Part shown: positions 5,802 through 56,096 of the stretch, piece after piece
How positions within the stretch are numbered: the first letter of the stretch is position 1
How the letters are laid out: each line of letters starts with the position of its first letter
DNA from: Progne subis subis
Taxonomy: Eukaryota; Chordata; Aves; Passeriformes; Hirundinidae
Assembly (NCBI GenBank): GCA_022316685.1
Contig: JAKJHU010001082.1
Location: 1-64,000, forward strand
Reading direction: 5' to 3'
Length of the DNA: 64,000 nt
Position numbers and translations under genes: made by a program
The notes under the pieces: model-generated
Seen by the model: only the letters and a program-made list of their open reading frames with translations
Databases searched by the model: none
Told to the model about the DNA's origin: nothing

Positions 5802-6445
5802 TGTTGAGGGTTAAGTTCTCCTGTAGAATTTTCCCCCCCCCCCCCCATGAGTTGCTAGATTTTAAGTAGGGGCAGTTTAAGCGGTGCTTAACCTGACAAA
5901 AGAAGTTGATCACTTGGTTTTGGGGAAGGGAGGAGGCTCCGGAGAGAGCTGGGGGGTGGCCTCACTTCTCTCAGCTTTCCCGGGGAGGACGGTCGGACTA
6001 CGGGTAGCTGCCTGGAGTCCACAGCTAACGGAGGAGTTTGGTCCTGGGAATTCTATCATCTGTTAGAGCGCCCAGGAATTCGGAGTTTCTTCGTTACCCT
6101 GCTGGATTTTGGGTCAGCCCGGGGTCCAGCCGCTGCGAGTTCTTCGGCACTGCCCACTTTGCCTGCCGGGGCACCCCCTGCCTGCTGAGGACAAATCCAT
6201 CGCTTCCAGCTTGCAGCCATCAGCGACGGACTTTGCCACCGTTTGCCCTCAGGGTTCTTGGTTCTGTTTTACTGTTATTATAAGTGCTGTTGTTGTTTGT
6301 CTGTCCTGTTATATTTACTAGTAAAGGACTGTTATTCCTTTTCCCTATAGCTCTGACCGAAAGTTTTTTTTTTAATCTTCTAAATTATAATAACCCGGAG
6401 GCTTGCCTCTCCTTAGCAGACAACTGTCTTTTTCAAACCAAGACA
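5802..6445 (+). repeat. 3' LTR of the ERV-L-like provirus
   Basis: It starts TGTTGAGGG and ends CA at 6444-6445, about 644 bases. It holds a run of C at 5832-5847 and is essentially identical to the 5' copy downstream of that run. The flank AGTCCTCC follows. The matching 5' flank is outside the window, so the target-site duplication cannot be tested. Confidence 0.85.
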
Positions 6446-10886: not shown

Positions 10887-12967
10887 TCAACAGGTCGACA
10901 CATGCTCCCAGTTTAGTGTCATCTGCAGATTACTAATGAAAGACTCCATGCCTTCATCCATGTCATCAATAAAAATATTGAACAGAGCTGGCCCCAGCAC
11001 AGACCCCTGAGGAACACCACTGGTGACTGGCTGCCAGCTGCATGCAGCACCGTTCCCCACCACTCTCTGGGCCCGGCCATCCAGCCAGTTCCTAACCCAG
11101 CACAGAGTGCTCCTGTCCAAGCCACAAGCTGCCAGTTTATCCAGGAGTGTGTGTGGGAGACAGTGTCAAAGGCCCTTGCTGAAGTCCAAATGGACAACAT
11201 CCACAGCCTTCCCTGCATCCACCAGGCAGGTCACCTGGTCATAAAAGGTGATCAGATTGGTCAAACATGACCTACCCCTCCTAAACACATGCTGGCTGGG
11301 TCTCATACCCTGGCCATCCTGCAAGGTCTGTGTGATGGCACTTTATATAAACTGTTCCATTATTTTGCCAGGTACTGAGGTCAGACTGACTGGTCTATAA
11401 TTACCAGGATCCTCCTTCGCACCCTTTTTGTGAATGGGTGTCTCATTGGCCAGCTTCCAGTCGTCTGGAACCTCACCAGTGAGCCAGGACTGTTTGGTAG
11501 ATGATTGGAGAGTGGCTAGCAAGCTCATCTGCCAGCTCTCTCATCACTCTGGGATGGATCCCGTCTGGGCCCATAGATTTATGGATATCCAGGCATTTTA
11601 GCAGTTCTCTGACTGCCTCCTCGTGGATAATGAGGGGACCATTCTGCTCCCTGACACCATCTACAAGCCCAGGAGGGCAGTTGTCTTGAAGGCAAGTTGT
11701 CTCCTCACTAAAAACTGAGGCAAAGTAGGCATTAAGCACTTCTGCCTTCTCCTCATCTGCAGATATTAAGTTCCCTCCTTTGTCCAGTCAAGAACAAAGG
11801 TTGGTCTTACCCTTCCTTTTAGCATTAATATATTTGTAAAAACATTTCTTATTATCCTTTACAGAAGTTGCCATTCTAAGTTCAAACTGAGCTTTGGCCT
11901 CCTTAATTTTTTTCCTACATGCTTTAGCAGCTTCCTTAAATACTTTCTGAGAGACCTGACCCCCCTTCCAAAGCTGATACATCCTCTTTTTATTCCGAAG
12001 TTCCTCCAAAACCTCCTTGCTCATCCAGGCTGGACGTTTACCCCGTTGACTTACCTTTTGGCACACAGGGACAGTCTGTTCCTGTGCCCTCAAGATCTCT
12101 GTTTTGAGGCATGCCCAGCTTTCCTGAACTCTTTTGTTTTTAAGGGCAGCTTCCCAAGGGATGCTCTGAATAAGTCTCCTAAACAGGCCAAAGTCTGCCC
12201 TCTGGAAGTCCAATGCAAGAGTTTTACTGGTGCTCCTCCTGACTTCACCAAATATTGAGAACTCTATTATTTCATGATCATTCTGCCCCAAGCGACCTCC
12301 AACCACCACATCTCCCACCAGTCCATCTAACATAGTCCCTCCCCTGGTGGGCTCACCCACCAACTGCGACAAAAAGTTGTCCTCCATACACTCGAAAAAT
12401 TTCCTGGACTGCCTCTTTTCTGCTGTATTAAGTTCCCAGCAGATGTCTGGTAGGTTGAAATCACTCACAAGAACAAGGGCTGATGATCCTGAAACATTAC
12501 CTAGCTGCTTATAGAATAAGTTGTCCACCTCTTCTTCCTGGTTGGGTGGATGATAACAGACTCCCAGCAGGATGTCAGCCTTGTTGGCCTTCCCCTTCAT
12601 TCTTACCCACAGGCATTCAACTCCATCTCCCTTAGTTCCAATTCCATCTTCTTTAGTTTCAATTCCTACGGTATCAAAAGTCTGCTTAATATAAAGGCCA
12701 CCCCTCCACCTCTTCTTCCTTGCCTGTCTCTTCTGAAGAGCTTGTAGCCATTGAGTGCAGTGCTCCAGCCATGTGAGTCATCCCACCATGTTTCCCTGAA
12801 CAGCTCTGCTGTTGCACCATGGCCTCCAGCTCTGCCTGTTTGTTACCATGCTGTGTGCATTGGTATACATGCACCTCAGCTGGGCTACTGACTTCACCCC
12901 CTAACTCAGCCTTGCAACCCTTGGGCCTGCTTCCAGACAGCCCAGCTGCATCCCCTTCCCCCTTCAA
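10887..12967 (-). pseudogene. CR1 ORF2 remnant: endonuclease and reverse transcriptase
   Basis: The endonuclease part is the longest open piece, 12600-11788. It includes a GVCYHPPNQ block and VLVSDFNLPDICW, an APE-type endonuclease motif. The reverse transcriptase lies at 11739-10887 in several frames, with [50 protein letters not shown] and then the catalytic ADDTKL block near 10905-10925 in a shifted frame. The 3' UTR covers 10058-10886. The enzyme would nick target DNA and copy CR1 RNA into it; this copy cannot. Confidence 0.85.
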
Positions 12968-16695: not shown

Positions 16696-17860
16696 AAATC
16701 TCCCTGATCGAGACTGAGACCAAGATCGAGACCGAGACTGAGACCATAATCAGCACCGGAACCGGCACCAGCACCGAGACTCAGACCGACACCAGATCCG
16801 AGACTGGCACCGCTCTGGTACTGGGACCGAGAATGAGATTGGCACTGGGAGCACTCCGGGACCAAGACAGGCAGTGGGACCGACACTGGGACCGGCACTG
16901 ATCCGAGACCGAGACTGAGGCTGGGACTGAAACCGGGCCTGGCACCGAGACTGGCACCCCTGGAGTGTGTGCCATGCAGGACCAGACAGACTGGGATCAT
17001 GCGGACTGGCACCTTGTAGGCTGGGATTGTACACACTGGGAATCACACGGACTGGGATTTCACAGGCTGGCAGCGCATGGATCAGAACCACAGAGACTGG
17101 GATCATACAAACTGGGATCATATGGAGCGGGATGGCTGCAGCGGAACGACGCGAACCGAGGCGGTCCCGCCCGGCCCAGGGCTCCCTCCCAGTCCCGCCC
17201 GGGTGTGCGGCCAAAACTCCCCGGAGCGAACGCGGCGGTCCAGAGCGATCCTGGAGCCAATCCCGGAGCGATTCGGGGTCCGATCCCCGTCCCGGTGCCG
17301 CCTCCAGTCTCAAGTCTCAGTCCCGGAGCGCTCCCGGTGCTGATTCCGGTCCCGGTGTGGATCTCGATCCCGGAGCGGTTGCCATTCTTGGTGCCGGTGC
17401 CGCTTCCTGTTCCACTCCTGGTCTCAGTCTCAGTCTCAGACTCTGTCTCGGAGCGTTCCCGGTACCGGAGGCGGTGCCGGTCTTGGTCCCAGAGTGCTCC
17501 CAGTGCCAATCTCAGTCTCGGTCCCGGAGCAGTTCCAGTCTCGGTGCTGGTTTCCGGTGCCGCTCTTGGTCTCAGTCCTGGCGTGCTCCCGGTCTCAGTT
17601 CTGGCCACAGTCCTGGAGCGGTCCTGGAGCGCTCCCGCCGCCGGTGCCGGTTCCAAAGCATTCCCGGTGCCGGTCCCAGTGTCGCTCTTGGTGTCAGTCT
17701 TGGTCCCTGCACCGCTTCTGGTGCCGGGTTTGGTCTCGGTCTCGGTCCCAGAGCGGTGCCGGTCTCGGTTCCGGTGTGGGTCTCAGTCTCGGTGCTGGTG
17801 TCGGTTCTGGTGCTGATCTCGGTCTCGGTGCCGGAGATTTCAGACCCTTTTGGGTGATTT
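16696..17860. repeat. GGTGCCGGTCTCGGT-type and ACTGGGATC-type minisatellites, module 1
   Basis: 16696-16960 reads as GAGACTGGCACCG units (reverse sense). 16965-17130 reads as ACTGGGATCATAC-like 15-mers. 17250-17850 reads as GGTCTCGGTGCCGGT-like units. The last give long open frames full of Ser, Arg, Gln, Cys and Val on both strands, with no domain, no Kozak-like start and different frames in the other modules. I treat them as non-coding. Confidence 0.85.
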
Positions 17861-17874
17861 TTGGGCAAAGCGAG

Positions 17875-18148
17875 CCTTGGAGGAGGGCGCGTCCCCTTGG
17901 CCATGCCCACTCTGCTCCTCGTTCCCGCCCTTTCCTTGGCCCCGCCCCTTTCCCCTGCCGGGCCCTGCGCTTTCCCTGACCCCGCCTCATTTCATTCCTT
18001 TCCTGAGCTTTCATTGGCCGCAGCTCTCTTCTCCCTTGAGCCCCGCCTATCTGCTGGCGCGTTGTCTCCGGCGCATGCGCAGAGTGCTCGGAAGTTGCTT
18101 CCCCGGAGTGCCGCCATCTTTGCTCCTGGTCCCCGACGGTGCTCCCGC
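17875..18148 (+). promoter_or_regulatory. CpG-rich RAB4-like promoter, module 1
   Basis: This has GC boxes (CCCCGCCC near 17940 and a degenerate one near 18040), an inverted CCAAT box (ATTGG at 18013-18017), the NRF-1-like palindrome GCGCATGCGC at 18071-18080, an ETS-like CGGAAGTT at 18089-18096 and a YY1-like GCCGCCATCTT at 18110-18120. There is no TATA box. This arrangement is typical of a housekeeping promoter, and it lies just before the 16-nt exon at 18149. It is kept almost base for base in modules 2 and 4. Confidence 0.75.
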
Positions 18149-19013
18149 GTGTGTGAGACCTACGGTGGGGCAATGGGGGATCTCTCGGGGATCCTGAGGG
18201 GTCTGAGTGGACCTGGGGGTCTGTCTAGGGAATTTGGGGGGTGTCTAGGGGATTTAGGGCGGTCGGGGGGTCCCTAAGGGGTTTTTGGGCGGCTCTAGGG
18301 GCTTTGTGGGTTTGAGGGGTCTATTGGTGATCTATAGGGGTCTGTGGGAGCCTCTAGCGGTTCCAGGGAGGTCTGGGGGTGTCTGTGGGTCCTATGGGGG
18401 ATTTGGGGGGGTCTAGGGGTCTCCGGAGAGGGTCTGAGGGCGCTATAGGGGATCTCTGCGGGATCTATAGAGGGTCCGGGGGGCTGGGTGTCCCTGTGGG
18501 TGATCTGGGGGTTCTCTAGAGGGGATCCCGGCGTCTCTAGGGGGGATTTGGTGGGGTCTTGTGGGGCTCTAGAGGCTCTATAGGGGTTTGGGGGAGCCAA
18601 AAAAGGGTCCAGGGGGATCTGGGGGGGGTTTCTCAGTATCTGTATAAGGAGATTCTGGGGTCCTTCAAGGGAATTTTTTTTTTAATTTTGGGCTTTGTAG
18701 GGGAAATTTTGAGGTCGAAATGGGGAAATTTTGGGTTTTCTATTGGGAATTTTTTGGAATTTTGGGGGAAATGCAGGAATTTGGGGAATTTCAGGTCCAA
18801 GTCTGGGAATTTTAAAATCTCTAGGGAGGATTTGGGGGGAATTTTATGTCTAAACATGGGAGATTTGGGGAATTTTAGTAACAAATGTAGGAAATCTTGG
18901 CAATTTGGGTCCAAACGTGGGAATTTTTTTCCAGATTTCCTCTTCAAGTTCTTGGTGATCAGCAGCGCTAGCACCAGCAAGTCTTGCCTGCTACAGCCCT
19001 TCATCAAGTGCAA
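18149..19013 (+). pseudogene. RAB4-like exons 1 and 2, module 1 (truncated pseudogene)
   Basis: Exon 1 at 18149-18164 reads GTGTGTGAGACCTACG and is followed by a GT donor. RAB4 proteins begin M(A/S)ETY, and the last 12 bases spell ETY plus the first base of the next codon; the ATG has become GTG. Exon 2 at 18935-19013 follows a TTTTTTTCCAG acceptor. Its AT completes an Asp codon and it then encodes FLFKFLVISSASTSKSCLLQ, clearly the RAB4 beta-1 strand and P-loop. The second P-loop Gly and the Gly before Lys-Ser are replaced by Ser. No exon 3 is found. The GTPase would act in endosome recycling; this piece cannot encode one. It may serve as a leader for the finger gene 3 kb downstream, which is inference. 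Confidence 0.8.
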
Positions 19014-20110
19014 GTATAGGAAATTCTGGGAATTTTTAGGGATTTTGGGAATTCCGGGCGGTCGGGGGATTTGGGGGGGGATTTTTTAAAAATATTTCTG
19101 GGCATTTTAAGGGTTTGGTTGCTTGATTCTTTGTTTTTCATTTTCTGTGTGTTTTTTGTTGAGTTTGGTGGAATTTTTTGAAATTTGGGGAATATTGCTG
19201 GCATTTTTGGCTTTTTTTTTAGCACTTTTGATGTTTTTTTCTGGTTTTTTTTAAATTTTGCTTTTTTGATGCAATTCTGGGCGATTTGAATTTTTGGAAT
19301 TCTGTGTCCCTCTGGGTTCTCCCCCATTCTGCAGTATTTTGGGGCATTTCCTGTCACTTTAGAGTAATTTTTGGTCACTTTTGGGGCATTTTTTGGCCAT
19401 TTTTGTGGTGTTTTCTGTCACATTGGGTAATTTGGGGCAATTTTGTCTCATTTTTGGGTAAATTTAAAGGGGATTTTTGGTCACTTTTTGGGCCATTTTG
19501 TGTCATTTTGAGCTGTTTTTGTAATTTTGGGTACATTTCTTGTCAGTTTTTGATCATTTGGGGGCCATTTTCTGCCACTTTTTGGTCTCTTGAGGGGTGT
19601 TTTTGGTGACTTTTGAGCCCTTCTTTGCTGGCTTCAGTCCCGGTCTCAGTGTTGATCTCAGCGCAGTCCAGGTCCCAGTGCCGGTAGCGGTGTCAGTCTT
19701 GGTCCCGGAGTGCTCCCAGTGCCAGTCTCAGTCTGGGTCCCAGTCCCGGAGCGGTGCCAGTCTCGGTGCTGGTTCCGGTGCCGGTCTTGGTCTCAGTCTT
19801 GGTGCCAGTGCCAGTTGTGGTGTCAGTTACGGTCTTGGTGTCAGTCCCGGTGCCGGTGCCTCTGTGGCGCCGGTCTCAGTTGCGGTGTACTGGTTCCGGT
19901 CCTGGTCCCGGTGCTGCAGCGGTGCCGCTCTCAGTTCTGGTGTCGGTTCTGGTCCCAGTCTTGGTCTCGGTGCCCGTCCCAGAGCAGCGCCGCTGTTGGT
20001 GCCGGTCTCGGATTCGGTGTCGGTCTGAGTCTTGGTGCTGGTGCCGGTTCTGGTGCTGACCTTGGTGTGGGTCTCAGTCCAGGTGCTGGAGATTTTAGGC
20101 CCATTGGGGT
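18180..20110. repeat. Intron and minisatellite stretch of module 1
   Basis: 18180-18640 is GGGGTCTCTAGGG-like minisatellite. 18650-18930 and 19020-19620 are T- and G-rich with many AATTTTGGGG-like units and hold no gene apart from RAB4-like exon 2. 19630-20090 is the GGTGCCGGTCTCGGT array again. The same order is present in modules 2 and 4. Confidence 0.75.
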
Positions 20111-20128
20111 AATTTTGGGCCAAAGCGT

Positions 20129-20690
20129 GTTGCGTTGTGGTTTTCAGGAGTGGAGCTGAAGCCCAGAGCCGATAAGCCTCTGCGGTGGAAAGGCCGCTTG
20201 GGGAAGCTCAGGCGAAGCAGTCAAGCTCACACATGCACACACGCCACGTGGGCAGCTCAGCAAGGAGAGGCCAGAAGGCCTTGGCACTGGATCAGTTCCA
20301 GCCAGGTTTATTTCCAGAAGCCCAAGGGGAATCCAGATTGGAAAGGGGAGCACGTGTGCCGGTCTGCAGCTCAAGTGTGAGCTTCAGCAGCCCAAGACCT
20401 TGAGGCACGGGGGCAGAGCAAAGGGCAGGAAAGGTCAGTGTCCTCTAGGGAAAAGGGGGCCAGTCCCCGGGAACCCCAAACCAATGGAGACACAGAGGAA
20501 GGGAGAACCCAAAGGGCCAGGGGAATCAGGGAGGGGAGAAACTGAGGCAAACCATCGTGTCCAGAGCCCCATTGGGAAGTTCTCTGTCTGAGGCTGGGCA
20601 GGTGACTCTATGATGTGTCCTGCCAAGGCCAGGCCCTAGGTATTATGGCAAGGGGCTGCAGGGACTCCACACTCAGCAGGATTCCAGTTG
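20129..20690. repeat. Conserved 0.55-kb block, copy 1
   Basis: This is non-satellite sequence shared by all four modules. It includes GCCACGTGGGC (an E-box) near 20245 and, on the minus strand, GGAAATAAACCTGG (AATAAA complement near 20308-20313), as if it were the 3' end of an antisense transcript or the R-U5 part of an old LTR. I cannot name it. Copies: 31270-30725, 43395-42850 and 53650-54205. Confidence 0.6.
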
Positions 20691-21930
20691 CTCACAGCCA
20701 CTCCCAGTCAATCCCAGTATGATTCCCATCACCCTCAGTGTGATCCCAGTTCTCCCCAGCATGGGTGCAGGTGTTCCCACTGTGGTCCCAGTGTGATCCC
20801 AGTTTCCCCTGGAATAGTCCCAGTCCCTCTCAGCATGGTCCCAGTCATGCCCAGTTGCCCCCAGTGCAGATCCAGTCACTCCCAGTTTCCTGTAGCGTGG
20901 TCCCAGTCATTCCCAGCATGATCCCAGCTGTTCCCAGTGTTGTTCCAGTCCCCCCAGTATGGTTCCAGACCCTCCCAGTATATCCCAGTTGCACTCAGCA
21001 TGCTCATAGTCATTCCCAGTCACTCCCAGTTGCCCCAGTAAGGCTCTAGTTACCTGAGGATGATGCCATCCTTTCCCAGTTACTCCCAGTCACTCCTAGT
21101 ATGATCCCAGTTGTGATCTCAGTCCCCTCACCATGGTTCCAGCACATTCCGGTTGATCCCAGTTGCTCCCAGTATGTTCACATTTTCCTGCTATCATGGG
21201 CCCAGCAGCTCCCAGTAACCCCCAGTGAGGATCCAGTCACAGCCACTGTAATCCCAGTGGCTCCCAGGACGATCCCAGTGGGACCCGTAGTCACTCCCAG
21301 TATGGTCCAGTCACTCCCAGTATGATCCATTGCACCCAGTCACCCCCAGTATGGTTCCAATCACGGCCAGCACCTTTCCAGTCTCTCCCAGTCTGACTCC
21401 AGTATGATCCCAGTCTCTGCCAGTACTATTCCAGTCACTCCCAGTATGATCCCAGTATGATTCCAGTCACTTGCAGTCTAATTCCAGTCACTCCCAGTGC
21501 AATGCCAGTGGCTCCCAGTGTGATTCCCAGTTGCTCCCTGTCAATGCCAGCATGACCCAGCAGCCTCCAGTATGATTCCAGTGACTCCCTGTCTCTCCCA
21601 GTATGTCCCATTCACCCCTTGCATGCTCCCAGTCACCCCCACTTCATCCCAGTTGCTCTCAGCATGATTCCAGTTACTCACAGCCACTCCCAGTCATTCC
21701 CAGTATGATTCCCATCACCCTCAGTGTGATCCCAGTTCTTCCCAGCATGGACCCAGCTGTTCCCACTGTGATCCCAGTATGATCCCAATTTCCCCCATCA
21801 AAGTTCCAGCTGTTCCCAGTTCCTCACAGTATTATCCCAGTTGCCCCTGGAATAGTCCCAGTCCCTCTCATCATGTTCCCAGTGACTCCCAGTTGTCCCC
21901 AGTGTAGATCCACTCACTCCCAATTACCTG
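20690..21930. repeat. CCCAGT/CCCAGTATGATC minisatellite, module 1
   Basis: TCCCAGTATGATCCCAGT-like units run for 1.2 kb. This is the complement of the ACTGGGA family elsewhere. It ends directly before the first zinc-finger coding exon. Confidence 0.85.
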
Positions 21931-22024
21931 TTTTTATGCACTCCAGATGCCTGGTGACTTCTAGAGATGGACTTGGGCAGAGAGACCTTCAAACTCAACG
22001 TGCTCATCCCTTCTTCTCCCCTAG

Positions 22025-23465
22025 ACAGGATTTCCAATTCCCAAACCTTCGCAGGATGGAGGAGGAGGCTGTGAGGAAGAGGAAGGTGCCCCAGGACAGC
22101 CAGGCAGGTGAGGAGGAAGTCAGTGCCCCTTTCCCCCTCTCTCCTGCTCCATCTCCCAGCCCAGCATGGCCCTGGATGCAGGACAACCCCGCAGCCGACG
22201 CCGTCCTGCCGGGGACGCACTGAGGGGATCTCCTTCCCCTTCCCTCTGGCACGGAGGCAAATCCCATCCTCCTTGTCCTTCCTCCCCCAGACAAGGAGCT
22301 GAGCATGGAGACCAGGGAGGACAAATCCCCACGGCAGATCCTCGTGGAAGAGGCCGTTTTGAGCGGCTCCATGGGGCAGGAATCCAACGGGGAGGAAAAG
22401 TCCTGGCGATCCCTCATGAGAAGAGACTGCAAAAGCAGATCACGAGGATCCGAGGAGGAAAGAGCCACCCTGTGCCAGGAAGGCGGCCAGAGATGGAGCC
22501 AGAGCTCAGACCTGGTGGTCCATGAGCAGCTTCATGATGGGGAGAAGCCCCACAAGTGCTTTGGGTGTGCAAAGAGCTTCAGCTGGCGGAGCCACCTGCT
22601 TCTCCACCAGAGGATTCACACAGACGAACGGCCCTACGAGTGTGGGGAATGTGGGAAGAGCTTCAGGCGCAGCTCCAGCCTGATAGAACACCAGAGGATC
22701 CACACAGGGGAGAGGCCCTATGAGTGTGAGGAATGTGGGAAGAGGTTCAGGAAGAGCTCCAACCTGATCTATCACCAGAAGATCCACACAGGGGAGAGGC
22801 CCTATGAGTGTGGGGAATGTGGGAAGAGGTTCAGACACAGCTCCAGCCTAACCAAGCACCAGAAGAGCCACACTGGGGAACGGCCATACAAGTGTTGGGA
22901 ATGTGGGAAGTGCTTCAGGCGCCATTGTTACCTGACTGTACATCAAAGGGTCCACACAGGGGAGAGGCCCTACAAGTGTTCCCAGTGTGGGAAGGGGTTT
23001 CTGACCAGCTCCCAGCTCCTTGAACATCAGCAGACACACATAGAGGAGAGGCCCTTCCGCTGCCCCGACTGTAGGAAGGGCTTCAAGCACAACTCCACCC
23101 TCATCAGCCACAGGCGCATCCACACCGGGGAGAGGCCCCACGAGTGTGATGTATGTGGGATGAGCTTCATACGGAGCTGTGACCTGATTCACCACCAGAG
23201 GACCCACACTGGGGAGAAGCCTTTTGAGTGTGATAAATGCAGCAAGAGGTTCCGCACGAGCTCCAATCTCCTCCTGCACCAGCGGATTCACACAGAGGAG
23301 AGGCCCTTCCGCTGTCCTGACTGTGGGAAGGGCTTCACTCAGAACTCCGTCCTCATCAGACACCGGCGCATCCACACCGGGGAGAGGCCCCACGAGTGTC
23401 CCCAGTGTGGGAAGAGCTTTTCATGGAGGTCTGACATGACCAGACACCAACTGAGGCACCGGTAA
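22025..23465 (+). CDS. C2H2 zinc-finger protein, 11 fingers (copy A, intact)
   Basis: A first coding exon has its acceptor at 22024, ATG at 22056 and donor at 22108, and encodes [17 protein letters not shown]. The second exon runs from 22291 to the TAA at 23463-23465. The joint falls after the first base of an Asp codon, giving 408 residues. The N-terminal 145 residues are acidic and charged, with no KRAB, SCAN or BTB domain. Eleven C2H2 fingers follow from 22551, joined by TGERP-like linkers; some are TEERP or TDERP. Finger 1 is GCAKSF-type. This is the songbird-expanded family; members are presumed nuclear DNA-binding repressors, but the target is unknown. It is one of two open copies and has the RAB4-like promoter 3.9 kb upstream. 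A further finger lies in frame after the stop. Confidence 0.88.
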
Positions 23466-29042: not shown

Positions 29043-30400
29043 TTAGCGGTGCCTCAGTTGGTGTCTGGTCATGTGAGACCTCTGTGAAAAGCTCTTCCTG
29101 CACTGGGGACACTCGTGGGGCCTCTCTGAGTGTGGATGTGCCGGTGGGCGGAGAGCGTGGAGTTGCGTGTGAAGCCCTTCCCGCAGTCAGGACAGCGGAA
29201 GGGCCTCTCCTCTGTGTGAATCCGCTGGTGCAAGAGGAGATTGGAGCTCGTGCAGAACCTCTTGCTGCATTTATCACACTCATAAGGCCTCTCCCCAGTG
29301 TGGGTCCTCTGGTGGCGGATCAGGTGAGACCTCTGTATGAAGCTCATCCCACATACATCACACTCGTGGGGCCTCTCCCCGGTGTGGATGCGCCTGTGGC
29401 TGATGAGGTTGGAGTTGTGCTTGAAGCCCTTCCCACAGTCAGGACAGCGGAAGGGCCTCTCCTCTGTGTGTGTCTGCTGATGTTCAAGGAGATGGGAACT
29501 GGTCAGAAAACCCATCCCACACTTGGAACACTTGTAGGGCCTCTCCCCAGTGTGGATCCTTTGGTGCATGGTCAGGGAGTTACGGCGCCTGAAGCACTTC
29601 CCACATTCCCCACACTTGTACGGCCGTTCCCCAGTGTGCATCCTCTGGTGCTGGGTTAGGTTGGAGCTCTCTCTGAACCTCTTCCCACATTCCTCACACT
29701 CATGGGGCCTCTCCCCAGTGTGGATCTTCTGGTGCCGCATCAGGCTGAAGCTCTTCCTGAAGCTCATCCCACATTCCCCACACTCATAGGGCCGTTCGTC
29801 TGTGTGAATCCTCTGGTGGAGAAGCAGGTCGCTCCGCCAGCTGAAGCTCTTTGCACACCCAAAGCACTTGTGGGGCTTCTCCCCATCATGAAGCTGCTCA
29901 TGGAGCACCAGGTCTGAGCTCTGGCTCCATCTCTGGCCGCCTTCCTGGCACAGGGTGGCTCTTTCCTCCTCAGATCTTCGTGATCTGCTTTTGCAGTCTC
30001 TTCTCACGAGGGATCGCCAGGACTTTTCCTCCCCGTTGGATTCCTGCCCCGTGGAGCCGCTCAAAACGGCCTCTTCCACGAGGATCTGCCGTGGGGATTT
30101 GTCCTCCCTGGTCTCCATGCTCAGCTCCTTGTCTGGGGGAGGAAGGACAAGGAGAGGATGGGATTTGCCTCCGTGCCAGAGGGAAGGGGAAGGAGATCCC
30201 CTCAGTGCGTCCCCGGCAGGACGGCGTCGGCTGCGGGGTTGTCCTGCAGCCGGGGCCATGCTGGGCTGGGAGATGGAGCAGGAGAGAGGGGGAAAGGGGC
30301 ACTGACTTCCTCCTCACCTGCCTGGCTGTCCTGGGGCATCTTCCTCTTCCTCACAGCCTCCTCCTCTATCCTGCAAAGGTTTGGGAATAAGAAATCCTGT
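29043..30400 (-). pseudogene. C2H2 zinc-finger pseudogene (copy B): lost ATG and frameshift
   Basis: Same gene as copy A on the minus strand. The first exon at 30369-30318 has ATA in place of ATG (forward 30367-30369), and the second exon begins at 30132. Nine fingers are in frame. In the linker after finger 9, near 29128-29134, one base is missing relative to the other copies, so the tenth finger is out of frame and translation would end at 29069; the original TAA is at 29043-29045. Finger 10 and the HQLRHR end match copy A more than C or D. A minus-strand ATG at 30259 opens a frame through the intron, but this is probably accidental. The RAB4-like promoter is 3 kb upstream (33380-33655). 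Confidence 0.85.
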
Positions 30401-32457: not shown

Positions 32458-33379
32458 TTGCTCTTGATGAAGGGCTGCAGCAGGTAGGACTTGCCAGTTC
32501 TGGCGCTCCTGATCACCAAGAACTTTTAGAGGAAATCTGGAAAACAACTCCCACATTTGGAGCCAAATAGCCAAGATTTCTACATTTGGACCTAAAATTC
32601 CCCAATTTACCCATGTTTGGATAAAATTCCTGCAAATCCTCTCTAGAGATCTCAAAATTCCCACACTTGGACCTGAAATTCCCAAATTCCTGCATTTGCC
32701 TCAAAATTCAAAAAATTTCCCAAGAGAAAACCCAAAATTGCAACATTTAAACCCCAAGAATTCCAGACCCCCAATGACCCTTTATTGGCTCCCACAGACC
32801 CCGATAGAGCCTCTAAAGCACCACCAGAACCCCCCAAACCCCCCCTAGAGAACCCCAGACCCCCCAGACCGCCCCAAATCCCCTACAGGGACTCCCAGAG
32901 CCCGTAGAGACCCCCCGAGATCCCCCACAGGGACACCCAGGCCCCCTGGACCCTCTATAGATCCCCCAGAGATCCCCTATAGCTCCCTCAGACCCTCTCT
33001 GGAGACCCCTAGACCCCCCCAAATCCCCCACAGGGACCCACAGACACCCCCAGACCTCCCCGGAACCGCTAGAGGCTCCCCCAGACCCCTACAGATCCCC
33101 AATACTCCCCTCAAACCCACAAAACCCCTATAAATACCCCCCTACCCCATTTAGGGACCCCCCGTGTCCCTTTACGGAATCCTCTGGACCCTCTAGAGAC
33201 CCCCCCCCCAGACGCCTAGAGAGCCCCTACAGCCCCCCCGCACAACCCCCTTAGGGACACCCAGGCCACCCTAAATCCCCTAGACAACCCCCAAATCCCC
33301 TAGAGAGACCCCCAGGCCCACTCAGACCCCTCAGGATCCCCGAGAGATCCCCCATTGCCCCACCGTAGGTCTCACACAC
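32458..33379 (-). pseudogene. RAB4-like exons 1 and 2, module 2
   Basis: Exon 1 on the minus strand is 33379-33364, with the same GTGTGTGAGACCTACG and GT donor as in module 1. Exon 2 is 32536-32458, again 79 bases after a TTTTCCAG acceptor. Its fourth codon has become TAA, so this copy is closed, and other residues of the P-loop are changed (SARTGKS). Intron length is about 0.83 kb, near that of module 1. Confidence 0.8.
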
Positions 33380-35297: not shown

Positions 35298-35590
35298 TGT
35301 GGGAGATTAGGGACAGGCGGTCGGAAGATATCGCGTTGTACGGGCAGACAGAACCCCTCCCTCAACACTTAGTTGTTTAGTGTCCTTGATAAGGTAAGCA
35401 ACACGTAACTTGTAACATAAGCAGACGGATGTGATGTAGCAAACAGAGGTTTTATAACTCCATGTAACCAGTTAATAAACGCCATTAGCCGTCCACCACA
35501 CTGGTGTCTGTGAGCTGGTGGCCCGAGCAGCCTGGCTGTGGCTGCCGTGTCGTTCCCGAACCAGGTCGCTACGCCTCAGCGGAGGCAGCA
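35298..35590 (+). repeat. 5' LTR of the TgERV-F-like provirus
   Basis: It runs TGTGGGAGATTAGG to GGCAGCA, with TTTTATAA near 35452 as TATA-like element and AATAAA at 35473-35478. It differs from the 3' LTR at roughly ten positions. Confidence 0.9.
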
Positions 35591-35592
35591 AG

Positions 35593-38424: not shown

Positions 38425-38717
38425 TGTGGGAGATTAGGGACAGGCGGTCGGAAGATATCGCGTTGTACGGGCCGACAGAACCCCTCCCTCAACACTTAGT
38501 TGGTTAGTGTCCTTGATAAGGTAAGCAACACCTAACTTGTAACATAAGCAGACGGATGTGATGTAGCAAACAGAGGTTTTATAACTCCATGTAACCAGTT
38601 AATAAACGCCATTAGCCGTCCACCACACTGGTGTCTGTGAGCCGGTGGTCCGAGCAGCCTGGCTGTGGCTGCTGTGTCGGTCCTGAACCAGGTCGCTACG
38701 CCTCAGCGGATGCAGCA
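38425..38717 (+). repeat. 3' LTR of the TgERV-F-like provirus
   Basis: It is 293 bases, the same length as the 5' LTR, from TGTGGGAG to TGCAGCA, with the same TATA-like and AATAAA sites. Confidence 0.9.
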
Positions 38718-38764
38718 AATAACACAAATTATAAGGGAAGGATTTGAATTCCTCATTTCCTAGA

Positions 38765-41110: not shown

Positions 41111-42469
41111 TTACTGGTGCCTCCGTTGGTGTATGGTCATGTGAGACTTCTGTGAAAAGCTCTTCCCACACTGGGGACACTCGTGGGGCCTCTCCCTGCT
41201 GTGCATGTGCCGGTGGTTGGAGAGCGTGGAGTTGCGTGTGAAACCCTTCCCACAGTCAGGACAGCGGAAGGGCCTCTCCTCTGTGTGAATCCGCTGGTGC
41301 AGGAGGAGATCGGAGCTCGTGCAGAACCTCTTGCTGCATTTATCACACTCATAAGGCTTCTCCCCAGTGTGGGTCCTCTGGTGGCGGATCAGGTTGCAGC
41401 TCTGTATGAAGCTCATCCCACATACATCACACTCGTGGGGCCTCTCCCCGGTGTGGATGCGCCTGTGGCGGGTGAGGTTGGAGTTGTGCTTGAAGCCCTT
41501 CCCACAGTCGGGGCAGCGGAAGGGCCTCTCCTCTATGTGTGTCTGCTGATGTTCAAGGAGCTGGGAGCTGGTCAGAAACCCCATCCCACACTCGGAACAC
41601 TTGTAGGGCCTCTCCCCAGTGTGGATCCTTTGGTGGACGGTCAGCTTGGTACGGTGTCTGAAGCACTTCCCACATTCTCCACACTTGTATGGCCGTTCCC
41701 CAGTGTGGATCCTCTGGTGTTGGGTTAGGTTGGAGCTCTCTCTGAACCTCTTCCCACATTCCCCACACTCATAGGGCAATTCCCCCTTGTGGATTCTCTG
41801 GTGACAGATCAGGCTGGAGCTCTCTCTGAAGCTCTTCCCACATTCCCCACACTCGTAGGGCCGTTCGTCTGTGTGAATCCTCTGGTGGAGAAGCAGGTCG
41901 CTCCGCCACCTGAAGCTCTTTGCACACCCAAAGCACTTGTGGGGCTTCTCCCCATCATGAAGCTGCTCATGGACCACCAGGTCTGAGCTCTGGCTCCATC
42001 TCTGGCCGCCTTCCTGGCACAGGGTGGCTCTTTCCTCCTCAGATCCTCGTGATCTGCTTTTGCAGTCTCTTCTCACGAGGGATCGCCAGGACTTTTCCTC
42101 CCCGTTGGATTCCTGCCCCGTGGAGCCGCTCAAAACGGCCTCTTCCACGAGGATCTGCTGTGGGGATTTGTCCTCCCCGGTCTCCATGCTCAGCTCCTTG
42201 TCTGGGGGAGGAAGGACAAGGAGAGGATGGGATTTGCCTCCGTGCCAGAGGGAAGGGGAAGGAGATCCCCTCAGTGCGTCCCCGGCAGGACGGCGTCGGC
42301 TGCGGGGTTGTCCTGCAGCCGGGGCCATGCTGGGCTGGGAGATGGAGCAGGAGAGAGGGGGAAAGGGGCACTGACTTCCTCCTCACCTGCCTGGCTGTCC
42401 TGGGGCACCTTCCTCTTCCTCACAGCCTCCTCCTCCATCCTGCGAAGGTTTGGGAATTGGAAATCCTGT
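41111..42469 (-). CDS. C2H2 zinc-finger protein, 10 fingers (copy C, intact)
   Basis: On the minus strand the ATG is at 42438-42436, the first coding exon ends at 42387 before a GT donor, and the second exon runs from 42201 to the TAA at 41113-41111. The joint has the same phase as copy A and gives 380 residues. The charged N-terminus is as in copy A ([10 protein letters not shown] start; [10 protein letters not shown] variation). Ten C2H2 fingers follow. Contact positions vary among copies: for example, finger 4 has RHRTKLTVH where copy B has RRRNSLTMH. The last finger ends HQRRHQ as in copy D. The module is cut at about 45000, so the RAB4-like promoter is missing; whether it is expressed is unclear. 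Presumed nuclear DNA-binding protein. Confidence 0.88.
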
Positions 42470-44586: not shown

Positions 44587-44665
44587 TTGCTCTTGATGAA
44601 GGGCTGCAGCAGGTAGGACTTGCCGGTGCTGGTACTGCCAATCACCAGGAATTTGAAGAGGAATT
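44587..44665 (-). pseudogene. RAB4-like exon 2 only, module 3
   Basis: Seventy-nine bases follow a TTTTTTCCAG acceptor and encode FLFKFLVIGSTSTGKSYLLQ. This is the best-preserved P-loop of the four copies, keeping GKS. Exon 1 and its promoter are absent: module homology stops at about 45000, where retroviral sequence starts. Confidence 0.8.
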
Positions 44666-51546: not shown

Positions 51547-52467
51547 GTGTGTGAGACCTACGGTGGGGCAATGGGGGATCTCTCGGGGATCCTGAGGGGT
51601 CTGAGTGGGCCTGGGGGTCTCTAGGGGATTTGGGGGGGTCTGGGTCTCCTTAAGGGGTTTATGGGGTGCTATAGGGGCTCTCTAGGGGTCTGAGGTATCT
51701 CTAGAGGGTCCAGAGGAGTCCGTAAAGGGGCTCTGGTGGTCCTATAGGGGGTCGAGGGGTCTCTTTAGGGTCTTTGTTGGTTTGAGGGGTCTATTGGGGA
51801 TCTATAGGGGTCTGGGGGAGCCTCTAGCAGTTCCGGGAGGTCTGGGGGCTGTCTGTGGGTCCCTATGGGGGATTTGGGGGTGTCTAGGGGTCTCCAGAGA
51901 GGGTCTGAGGGCGCTATAGGGAATCTCTGGGGGATCTATAGAGGGTCCAGGGGGGCTGGGTGTCCCTGTGGGGGATCTGGGGGGGTCTCTAGGAGTCCCT
52001 ATAGGGGATTTGAGGGGATCTGGGGGTGCTCTAGAGGCTCTAAAGGGGTCTAGGGGAGCCAAGAAAGGGTCCAGGAGGGTCTGGGAGGTTCAGTATCTCT
52101 ATACGGAAAGTTTGGGGTTCTTCAAGGGGATTTTTTTGGAATTTTGGCTCTGTATTGGGAATTTTTGGGGTCCAGATGTGGCAATTTGGGTTTTCTGTTC
52201 GGATATTTTTTGAATTTTGAGGCAAATGCAGGAATTTGGGGAATTTCAGGTCCAAGTGTGGGGATTTTGAGATCTCCGGAGAGGATTTTGGGGGAATTTT
52301 GTATCCAAAAATTTGAAACTTGGGGAATTTTAGGTCCAAATGTAGGAAGTCTTGGCAATTGGGTCCAAATGTGGGAATTTTTTTCCAGATTTCCTCCTCA
52401 AGTTCTTGGTGATTGGCAGCGCCAGCACCAGCAAGTCTTGCCTGCTCCAGCCCTTCATCAAGAGCAA
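51547..52467 (+). pseudogene. RAB4-like exons 1 and 2, module 4
   Basis: Exon 1 at 51547-51562 is GTGTGTGAGACCTACG with a GT donor. Exon 2 at 52389-52467 is 79 bases after a TTTTCCAG acceptor, and encodes FLLKFLVIGSASTSKSCLLQ without a stop. The first Gly of the P-loop is kept, while the Gly before Lys-Ser is Ser. The minisatellite of GGGGTCTCTAGGG units at 51580-52080 lies in the intron. Confidence 0.8.

Positions 52468-54568: not shown

Positions 54569-56096
<1,528 letters not shown>

Follow-up and report, generated by a model that had tools for sequence, protein, structure and literature searches.

The 5' end of a RAB4B gene, consisting of a CpG promoter and the first two exons, stands upstream of and on the same strand as the members of an amplified C2H2 zinc-finger family in Progne subis subis. 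The order and strand of the parts are fixed, the RAB4B start codon is lost, and the promoter sites and splice dinucleotides are kept. We see about an even chance that this 5' end, once captured and rid of its ATG, was multiplied in the role of promoter and leader of a diversifying finger family, in which case the captured block would probably be the on-switch of the finger genes.

Modules in the window

The window, i.e. the whole stretch of 64,000 nucleotides analyzed here, contains four modules (A to D) with the features listed below. The names NRF-1, ETS and YY1 are those which we take to fit the promoter sites at 18071, 18089 and 18110.

16820..17870 (+): GC-rich variable tandem repeat (VNTR) upstream of the promoter, module A; 84-100% alike per 100-nt window among modules A, B and D, mostly 93-100%
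17875..18148 (+): RAB4B-derived CpG promoter and 5' leader, module A; CpG o/e 0.81, 2.8% mean divergence over 22 copies
18071..18080 (+): NRF-1-like site GCGCATGCGC, kept in 22/22 copies
18089..18094 (+): ETS-like site CGGAAG, kept in 22/22 copies
18110..18121 (+): YY1-like site GCCGCCATCTTT, kept in 22/22 copies
18149..18164 (+): coding part of RAB4B exon 1, GTGTGTGAGACCTACG, 16 nt, module A; GTG for ATG, donor GT at 18165
18935..19013 (+): RAB4B exon 2, 79 nt, module A; eroded P-loop SSASTSKS, AG/GT at the ends
19630-20130: second tandem repeat (vntr2), module A, between exon 2 and the leader
22029..22107 (+): finger leader exon, module A, start codon at 22056; acceptor kept 21/21, songbird models enter at the same D
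22291..23465 (+): finger coding exon, module A; 408 aa and 11 fingers in the protein after splicing
33364..33379 (-): RAB4B exon 1, module B
32458..32536 (-): RAB4B exon 2, module B, with an in-frame stop
29069..30132 (-): finger coding exon, module B; leader exon without the start string ATGGAGG
44587..44665 (-): RAB4B exon 2, module C
41111..42201 (-): finger coding exon, module C
51547..51562 (+): RAB4B exon 1, module D
52389..52467 (+): RAB4B exon 2, module D
54837..56096 (+): finger coding region of module D; five fingers, then a break in the frame

The copies of the exon pair at 33379-32458 and 51547-52467, and of exon 2 alone at 44665-44587, were found as claimed in the original prediction made from this sequence. 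In module C promoter and exon 1 were looked for and not found, exon 2 being its sole RAB4B part.

Origin of the promoter and exons 1 and 2

The spliced peptide of exons 1 and 2 has RAB4A as its best match in the PDB (E 4.9e-9), the first non-RAB4 chain being RAB43 (E 7.8e-4). All 84 proteins matched by this peptide in a protein database search carry the RAB4-type segment KFLVIG(S/N)A(G/N)TGKSC(L/I)L, with the P-loop GSAGTGKS in 51, GNAGTGKS in 32 and GNANTGKS in one. Exon 2 had been predicted to encode the RAB4 beta-1/P-loop segment, and both searches bear this out, RAB4 scoring better than any other GTPase; the splice phases of the two exons also fit. The 32-aa peptide, which is too short for the purpose, gave no Ras match in a Pfam scan. 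Matches were likewise lacking in an Rfam scan of the window, in two viral-contig pattern scans and in a bacterial promoter scan, the last being a method unsuited to bird DNA.

The earlier wording of a RAB4 type can be made more precise. Passerine RAB4B (P0143, P0138, P0180) reads GSAGTGKSCLLHHFIESK and avian RAB4A (P0146, P0168) reads GNAGTGKSCLLHQFIEKK, while HQFIENK is the RAB4B form in goose, cuckoo and emu (P0123, P0126, P0144). Most array copies have GSA and the final SK, and HH is retained in one fetched locus (L023), all of these being residues of passerine RAB4B and not of avian RAB4A. These residues identify the segment at 17875-19013 as the 5' end of RAB4B rather than RAB4A, and suggest that the capture took place after the rise of the passerine HHFIESK form. 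The array copies resemble passerine RAB4B in the phase of exons 1 and 2, the end of exon 2 and most residues; unlike it, they have lost the start codon, their P-loop is eroded and the downstream exons were not found.

Two of the 84 matched proteins are fusions to other sequence. In the predicted protein P0127 (Cinclus cinclus) intact RAB4 exons 1 and 2 lead into a UFO-like kinase, and in P0121 (Trichonephila clavipes) into unrelated sequence. A VNTR-like stretch upstream of RAB4B in Cinclus P0127 matches the VNTR of the window in mixed sense, and we do not claim the VNTR as a co-traveller of RAB4B.

Copy number and order of the modules

Looser first searches of the 1.166-Gb assembly (2896 contigs) returned 273 promoter/exon 1 candidates and 279 exon 2 candidates, 40 of each being scored. 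The exact GTG exon 1 with its donor occurs in 178 places, and the reversed-pattern control in 0. The block is thus copied to many dozens of copies. Since some matches fall at identical coordinates on several contigs (e.g. C1051, C1396 and C2612 at 273-378), some contigs may duplicate each other and the distinct loci may number well below 178.

We read 23 modules, the four in the window and 19 fetched from elsewhere in the assembly, all 19 picked through exon 2 matches. Their recurring order is promoter, exon 1, exon 2, finger leader and fingers, the exceptions being module C, without promoter and exon 1, and two modules without leader. Promoter and exon 1 lie upstream of the fingers in 19/19 fetched loci and the leader is also present in 17/19, being lost in L019 and L020. 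The original prediction, that the promoter block is built into the finger modules, therefore holds for 22 of the 23 modules read. A 60-kb stretch of contig C2002, read end to end, contains five finger modules, each preceded on the same strand by promoter, exon 1 and exon 2, and one of them without leader. Taken together with the window, a same-strand exon 2 stands upstream in 9/9 finger modules, and promoter and exon 1 in 8/9; C2002 was chosen for its many exon 2 matches, and these figures speak to modules inside arrays and not to the existence of block-free arrays. In structure the arrangement is that of a captured-promoter duplicon, an amplified family whose members are preceded, in fixed orientation, by the promoter and exon 1 of a gene unrelated to them.

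L019, L020 and the C2002 module near 133,700-134,900 have neither a leader nor the beginning of the finger exon, so that what comes after the RAB4B intron 2 sequence is a truncated finger exon.

Start codon, splice sites and reading frames

None of the 22 copies with exon 1 has an ATG, 21 reading GTG and one (L028) TTG. A shorter and looser pattern for exon 1 with ATG has one exact place in the assembly, an array copy in a CATG context, which fits a CpG transition of CGTG. The absence of ATG from all copies read, and its single occurrence against 178 GTG places genome-wide, bear out the earlier claim that the start codon was lost before amplification. The second codon is still TCT in 5/22 copies (L016, L017, L018, L022 and L028) and in some listed genome matches; as TCT persists in some copies while the ATG is gone, the loss of ATG probably came before the change of TCT to TGT. 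It had also been proposed that all copies were altered alike, which stands for ATG to GTG (in all but L028) and fails for TCT to TGT. Selection against regaining an ATG is not claimed, the proportion of 1 to 178 being in keeping with the low CpG decay of the promoter core described below.

The donor GT of exon 1 is kept in 22/22 copies and the AG and GT of exon 2 in 23/23. In the modules with a leader the acceptor AG before GATTTCC is kept in 21/21, placing the exon start at 22029, and songbird gene models enter the leader exon at the same D. The site originally proposed, before 22025, is kept in only 15/21 and gives way to that at 22029.

In module A the former RAB4B start and the finger ATG lie in different frames, whether exon 1 is joined to 22029 directly or through exon 2. 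The same comparison was made for the 13/22 modules whose leader was recognised by the search expression. In these, both splice forms are free of ATG from the YY1-like site up to the finger ATG, and for each form 12/13 modules have the former start out of frame, the in-frame cases being L017 (direct form) and L018 (through exon 2). Outside the 13, L022 has one ATG in the exon-1 leader. Five modules (B, L012, L021, L024 and L028) gave no match to the leader start string ATGGAGG. They could start instead at an in-frame ATG (METRED) near the beginning of the finger exon, as the Hirundo model P0001 does.

The finger genes

Finger frames reach 300 aa or more in 15/23 modules, of which 9 also have the leader ATG and its donor and 6 have no leader recognised as complete; the remaining 8/23 are broken or without leader. 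Over 112 distinct fingers, positions -1, +3 and +6 are the three most variable of 26 (3.16, 3.20 and 3.39 bits). By the usual finger numbering we take these to be the DNA-contact positions, so that the family behind the putatively captured promoter varies most at the residues that presumably touch DNA. The array looks like a diversifying C2H2 family with many dead members. In the Pfam results, obtained for the module A frame only, KRAB is absent from the best 25 of 32 rows.

Nearest to the N-terminus of the finger protein comes Hirundo rustica P0001 (96% over 79% of a 105-residue stretch), the fingers of which are only about 69% like those of the modules here. The same leader exon appears in gene models of many other songbirds, after other predicted exons. 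Being so widespread, it suggests that the finger family presumably once had a different start. Hirundo models join the leader to retroviral and olfactory-receptor pieces, and for this reason we did not rely on gene models to prove splicing.

Conservation of the promoter block

Divergence, given as the pairwise mean with n the copies passing the length cut, and CpG decay, given as the ratio of the rate of CpG transitions to that at other C/G, were compared over the blocks of the module:

Upstream VNTR: divergence 3.5% (n=18); CpG decay ratio 7.0 (18 copies)
Promoter: 2.8% (n=22); ratio 4.1 for the whole block
Intron 1 end: 10.0% (n=22); ratio 3.5, on 2 CpG sites
Exon 2: 8.2% (n=23); ratio 11.4
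Intron 2: 10.4% (n=16); ratio 3.2, on 4 CpG sites
vntr2 (19630-20130): 5.7% (n=23); ratio 3.2, CpG o/e 0.66
20140-20690: 1.7% (n=21); ratio 8.2
Leader: 5.2% (n=21); ratio 10.5
Leader intron: 1.0% (n=21); ratio 7.9
First part of finger exon: 2.4% (n=23); ratio 25
Downstream: 4.5% (n=14); ratio 8.1

In raw conservation the promoter is not special. Its non-coding neighbours are about as conserved, so that homogenisation could account for much of what is seen. Block distances among the copies do not share one history, which makes sequence exchange between module copies likely. Homogenisation appears uneven, 20140-20690 (1.7%) and 22111-22290 (1.0%) standing against 5 to 10% in other blocks.

In the chief rival of the captured-promoter reading the RAB4B fragment would be a passenger, duplicated along without a role, with the finger genes starting from a promoter nearer the leader. 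We consider this a serious possibility, if somewhat short of even. It agrees with the equal conservation of the flanking non-coding blocks, with the presence of the leader exon in finger relatives of many other songbirds, and with the CpG-rich vntr2, which lies nearer the leader and has a low decay ratio of its own. Exon 2 is also what a passenger would look like. Its 30 variants comprise 17 non-synonymous, 12 synonymous and one stop, stops occur in 2/23 copies, and the exon evolves near-neutrally. Coding constraint on exon 2 was considered and set aside, as the synonymous excess (12 against 6 to 10 expected) fades under realistic transition and CpG weights; the invariant columns number 51/79 in the exon against 104/240 and 56/240 in the flanking introns.

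Two finer signs, invariant sites and low CpG loss in the core, nevertheless favour a promoter function over a passenger. The NRF-1-, ETS-, YY1- and GC-box-like sites are invariant in 22/22 copies, whereas four random windows of the same lengths are all invariant with a frequency of 0.002; as the ETS and GC-box sites were chosen post hoc, the value for NRF-1 and YY1 alone, the two sites already named in the original prediction, is 0.22 x 0.17, or about 0.04, a product of single-window values. The promoter core has a CpG o/e of 1.01, and CpG transitions there amount to 6/570 versus 4/1112 at other C/G, a ratio of 2.9; sites and CpGs alike were counted in related copies, so that the observations are not independent. 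CpGs of the core thus decay less than those of most other blocks, as would be expected if they were unmethylated in the germ line. Against a passenger also speak the splice dinucleotides kept throughout exons 1 and 2, and, against a promoter nearer the leader, the stretch 20200-22290 of module A, where no 100-nt window exceeds a CpG o/e of 0.41.

The RAB4-like exons had been put forward as the obvious leader of the finger genes. They remain candidates for it, and a non-coding leader would be invisible in protein databases. Near-neutral change with stops counts against exon 2 as a needed part, though its AG and GT are kept, and the occurrence of the finger leader exon in other songbirds weighs against RAB4 as the obvious leader of the whole family.

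Proposed mechanism and remaining alternatives

According to the captured-promoter reading, the 5' end of passerine RAB4B, from the promoter through exon 1, intron 1 and exon 2 into intron 2, would have come to lie in front of a C2H2 finger gene and on its strand. The RAB4B start codon would have changed from ATG to GTG, and the module would then have been amplified in arrays to many dozens. From the DNA we infer promoter activity, splice path and the effect of ATG loss as follows. Transcription would start near the YY1-like site, a housekeeping-type promoter driving each module. Exon 1 would be spliced to 22029 directly or through exon 2, the RAB4B exons forming an untranslated leader, and the first AUG of the message would be the finger start codon at 22056. 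In most modules a retained RAB4B ATG would begin a reading frame that overlaps the finger frame out of register, and without this ATG the finger protein could be made. Frame arithmetic would in this way explain the loss of the start codon.

The same sites and CpG pattern would be expected if the RAB4B promoter were active in the arrays and yielded a separate non-coding RNA in place of the finger message, and intact splice sites around a near-neutral exon 2 would suit such an RNA. The fixed same-strand order and the acceptor kept downstream at 22029 argue against it, and we regard it as unlikely. That we are looking at a RAB4B gene, functional or decaying, instead of the front end of finger genes is highly improbable in spite of the correct phase of exons 1 and 2, given that every copy read lacks the ATG, that the lone ATG copy of the genome lies itself in an array, and that beyond exon 2 no RAB4B match in the window is better than E 0.017 among the matches listed and no exon 3 onward is found at high identity in the assembly.

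Native RAB4B was also sought in the assembly as a whole. Neither an exon 1 reading ATG TCT as in RAB4B nor any high-identity match to RAB4B exons 3 to 8 was found there, and the native gene may be either lost or merely unassembled. RAB4A is present on contig C202, which matches the query of RAB4B exons 3-8 at 74 to 86% and was ruled out as RAB4B. The top match for the same query (74%), on C2287, reads GVGKSCLLHQFTEKK and was not taken as RAB4B either; it is presumably RAB14. RAB4B-like matches in songbird assemblies may be array fragments.

More tentatively, we put forward that one housekeeping-type promoter, that of RAB4B, freed of its start codon, made a large array of separately driven, fast-diversifying finger genes, possibly serving genome defence in the germline or early embryo. 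It is also a convenient case in which to test how expression is acquired across so many finger genes.

Comparison with known systems

Primate core duplicons are a documented case of promoters captured through segmental duplication. NBPF is described as a duplicated, expanding family with a promoter from the unrelated gene EVI5 (PMC6920530, PMC3429928), with 23 genes in human that are expressed (PMC3429928). The swallow array resembles what is described there in having the promoter of an unrelated gene in front of an expanding duplicated family; it differs in belonging to a bird, in its C2H2 fingers, in the 178 exact exon-1 places in one assembly, in the lost start codon of the donor and in being known from DNA alone. 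In LRRC37, the unrelated BPTF and DND1 promoters are reported to front an expanding duplicated family (PMC6920530). Gene family and donors are other than here, where one donor, RAB4B, is common to the modules read. By structure only, the array may be seen as a variant of this primate promoter capture, the same route having apparently been taken in a songbird at far higher copy number.

C2H2 finger clusters of chicken are described as lineage-specific and formed by duplication, the largest, on chr29, having 16 KRAB genes of 21 (PMC11476951). The portions of that paper drawn on here mention no captured foreign promoter, and for the module A frame KRAB is absent from the best 25 of 32 Pfam rows. 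Literature searches for RAB4B with zinc finger and avian, for EGLN2 and chicken, or for songbird found nothing relevant.

Other elements in the window

Two endogenous retroviral elements share the window with the modules. The first has direct repeats at 9-614 and 5833-6445, 98.0% alike, flanking reverse transcriptase and integrase matches. In the second, the direct repeats at 35298-35591 and 38425-38718 are 96.9% alike and lie around Retro_M and TLV_coat matches. An open frame of 329 codons at 11788-12777 (-) presumably resembles the endonuclease of a CR1-type LINE.
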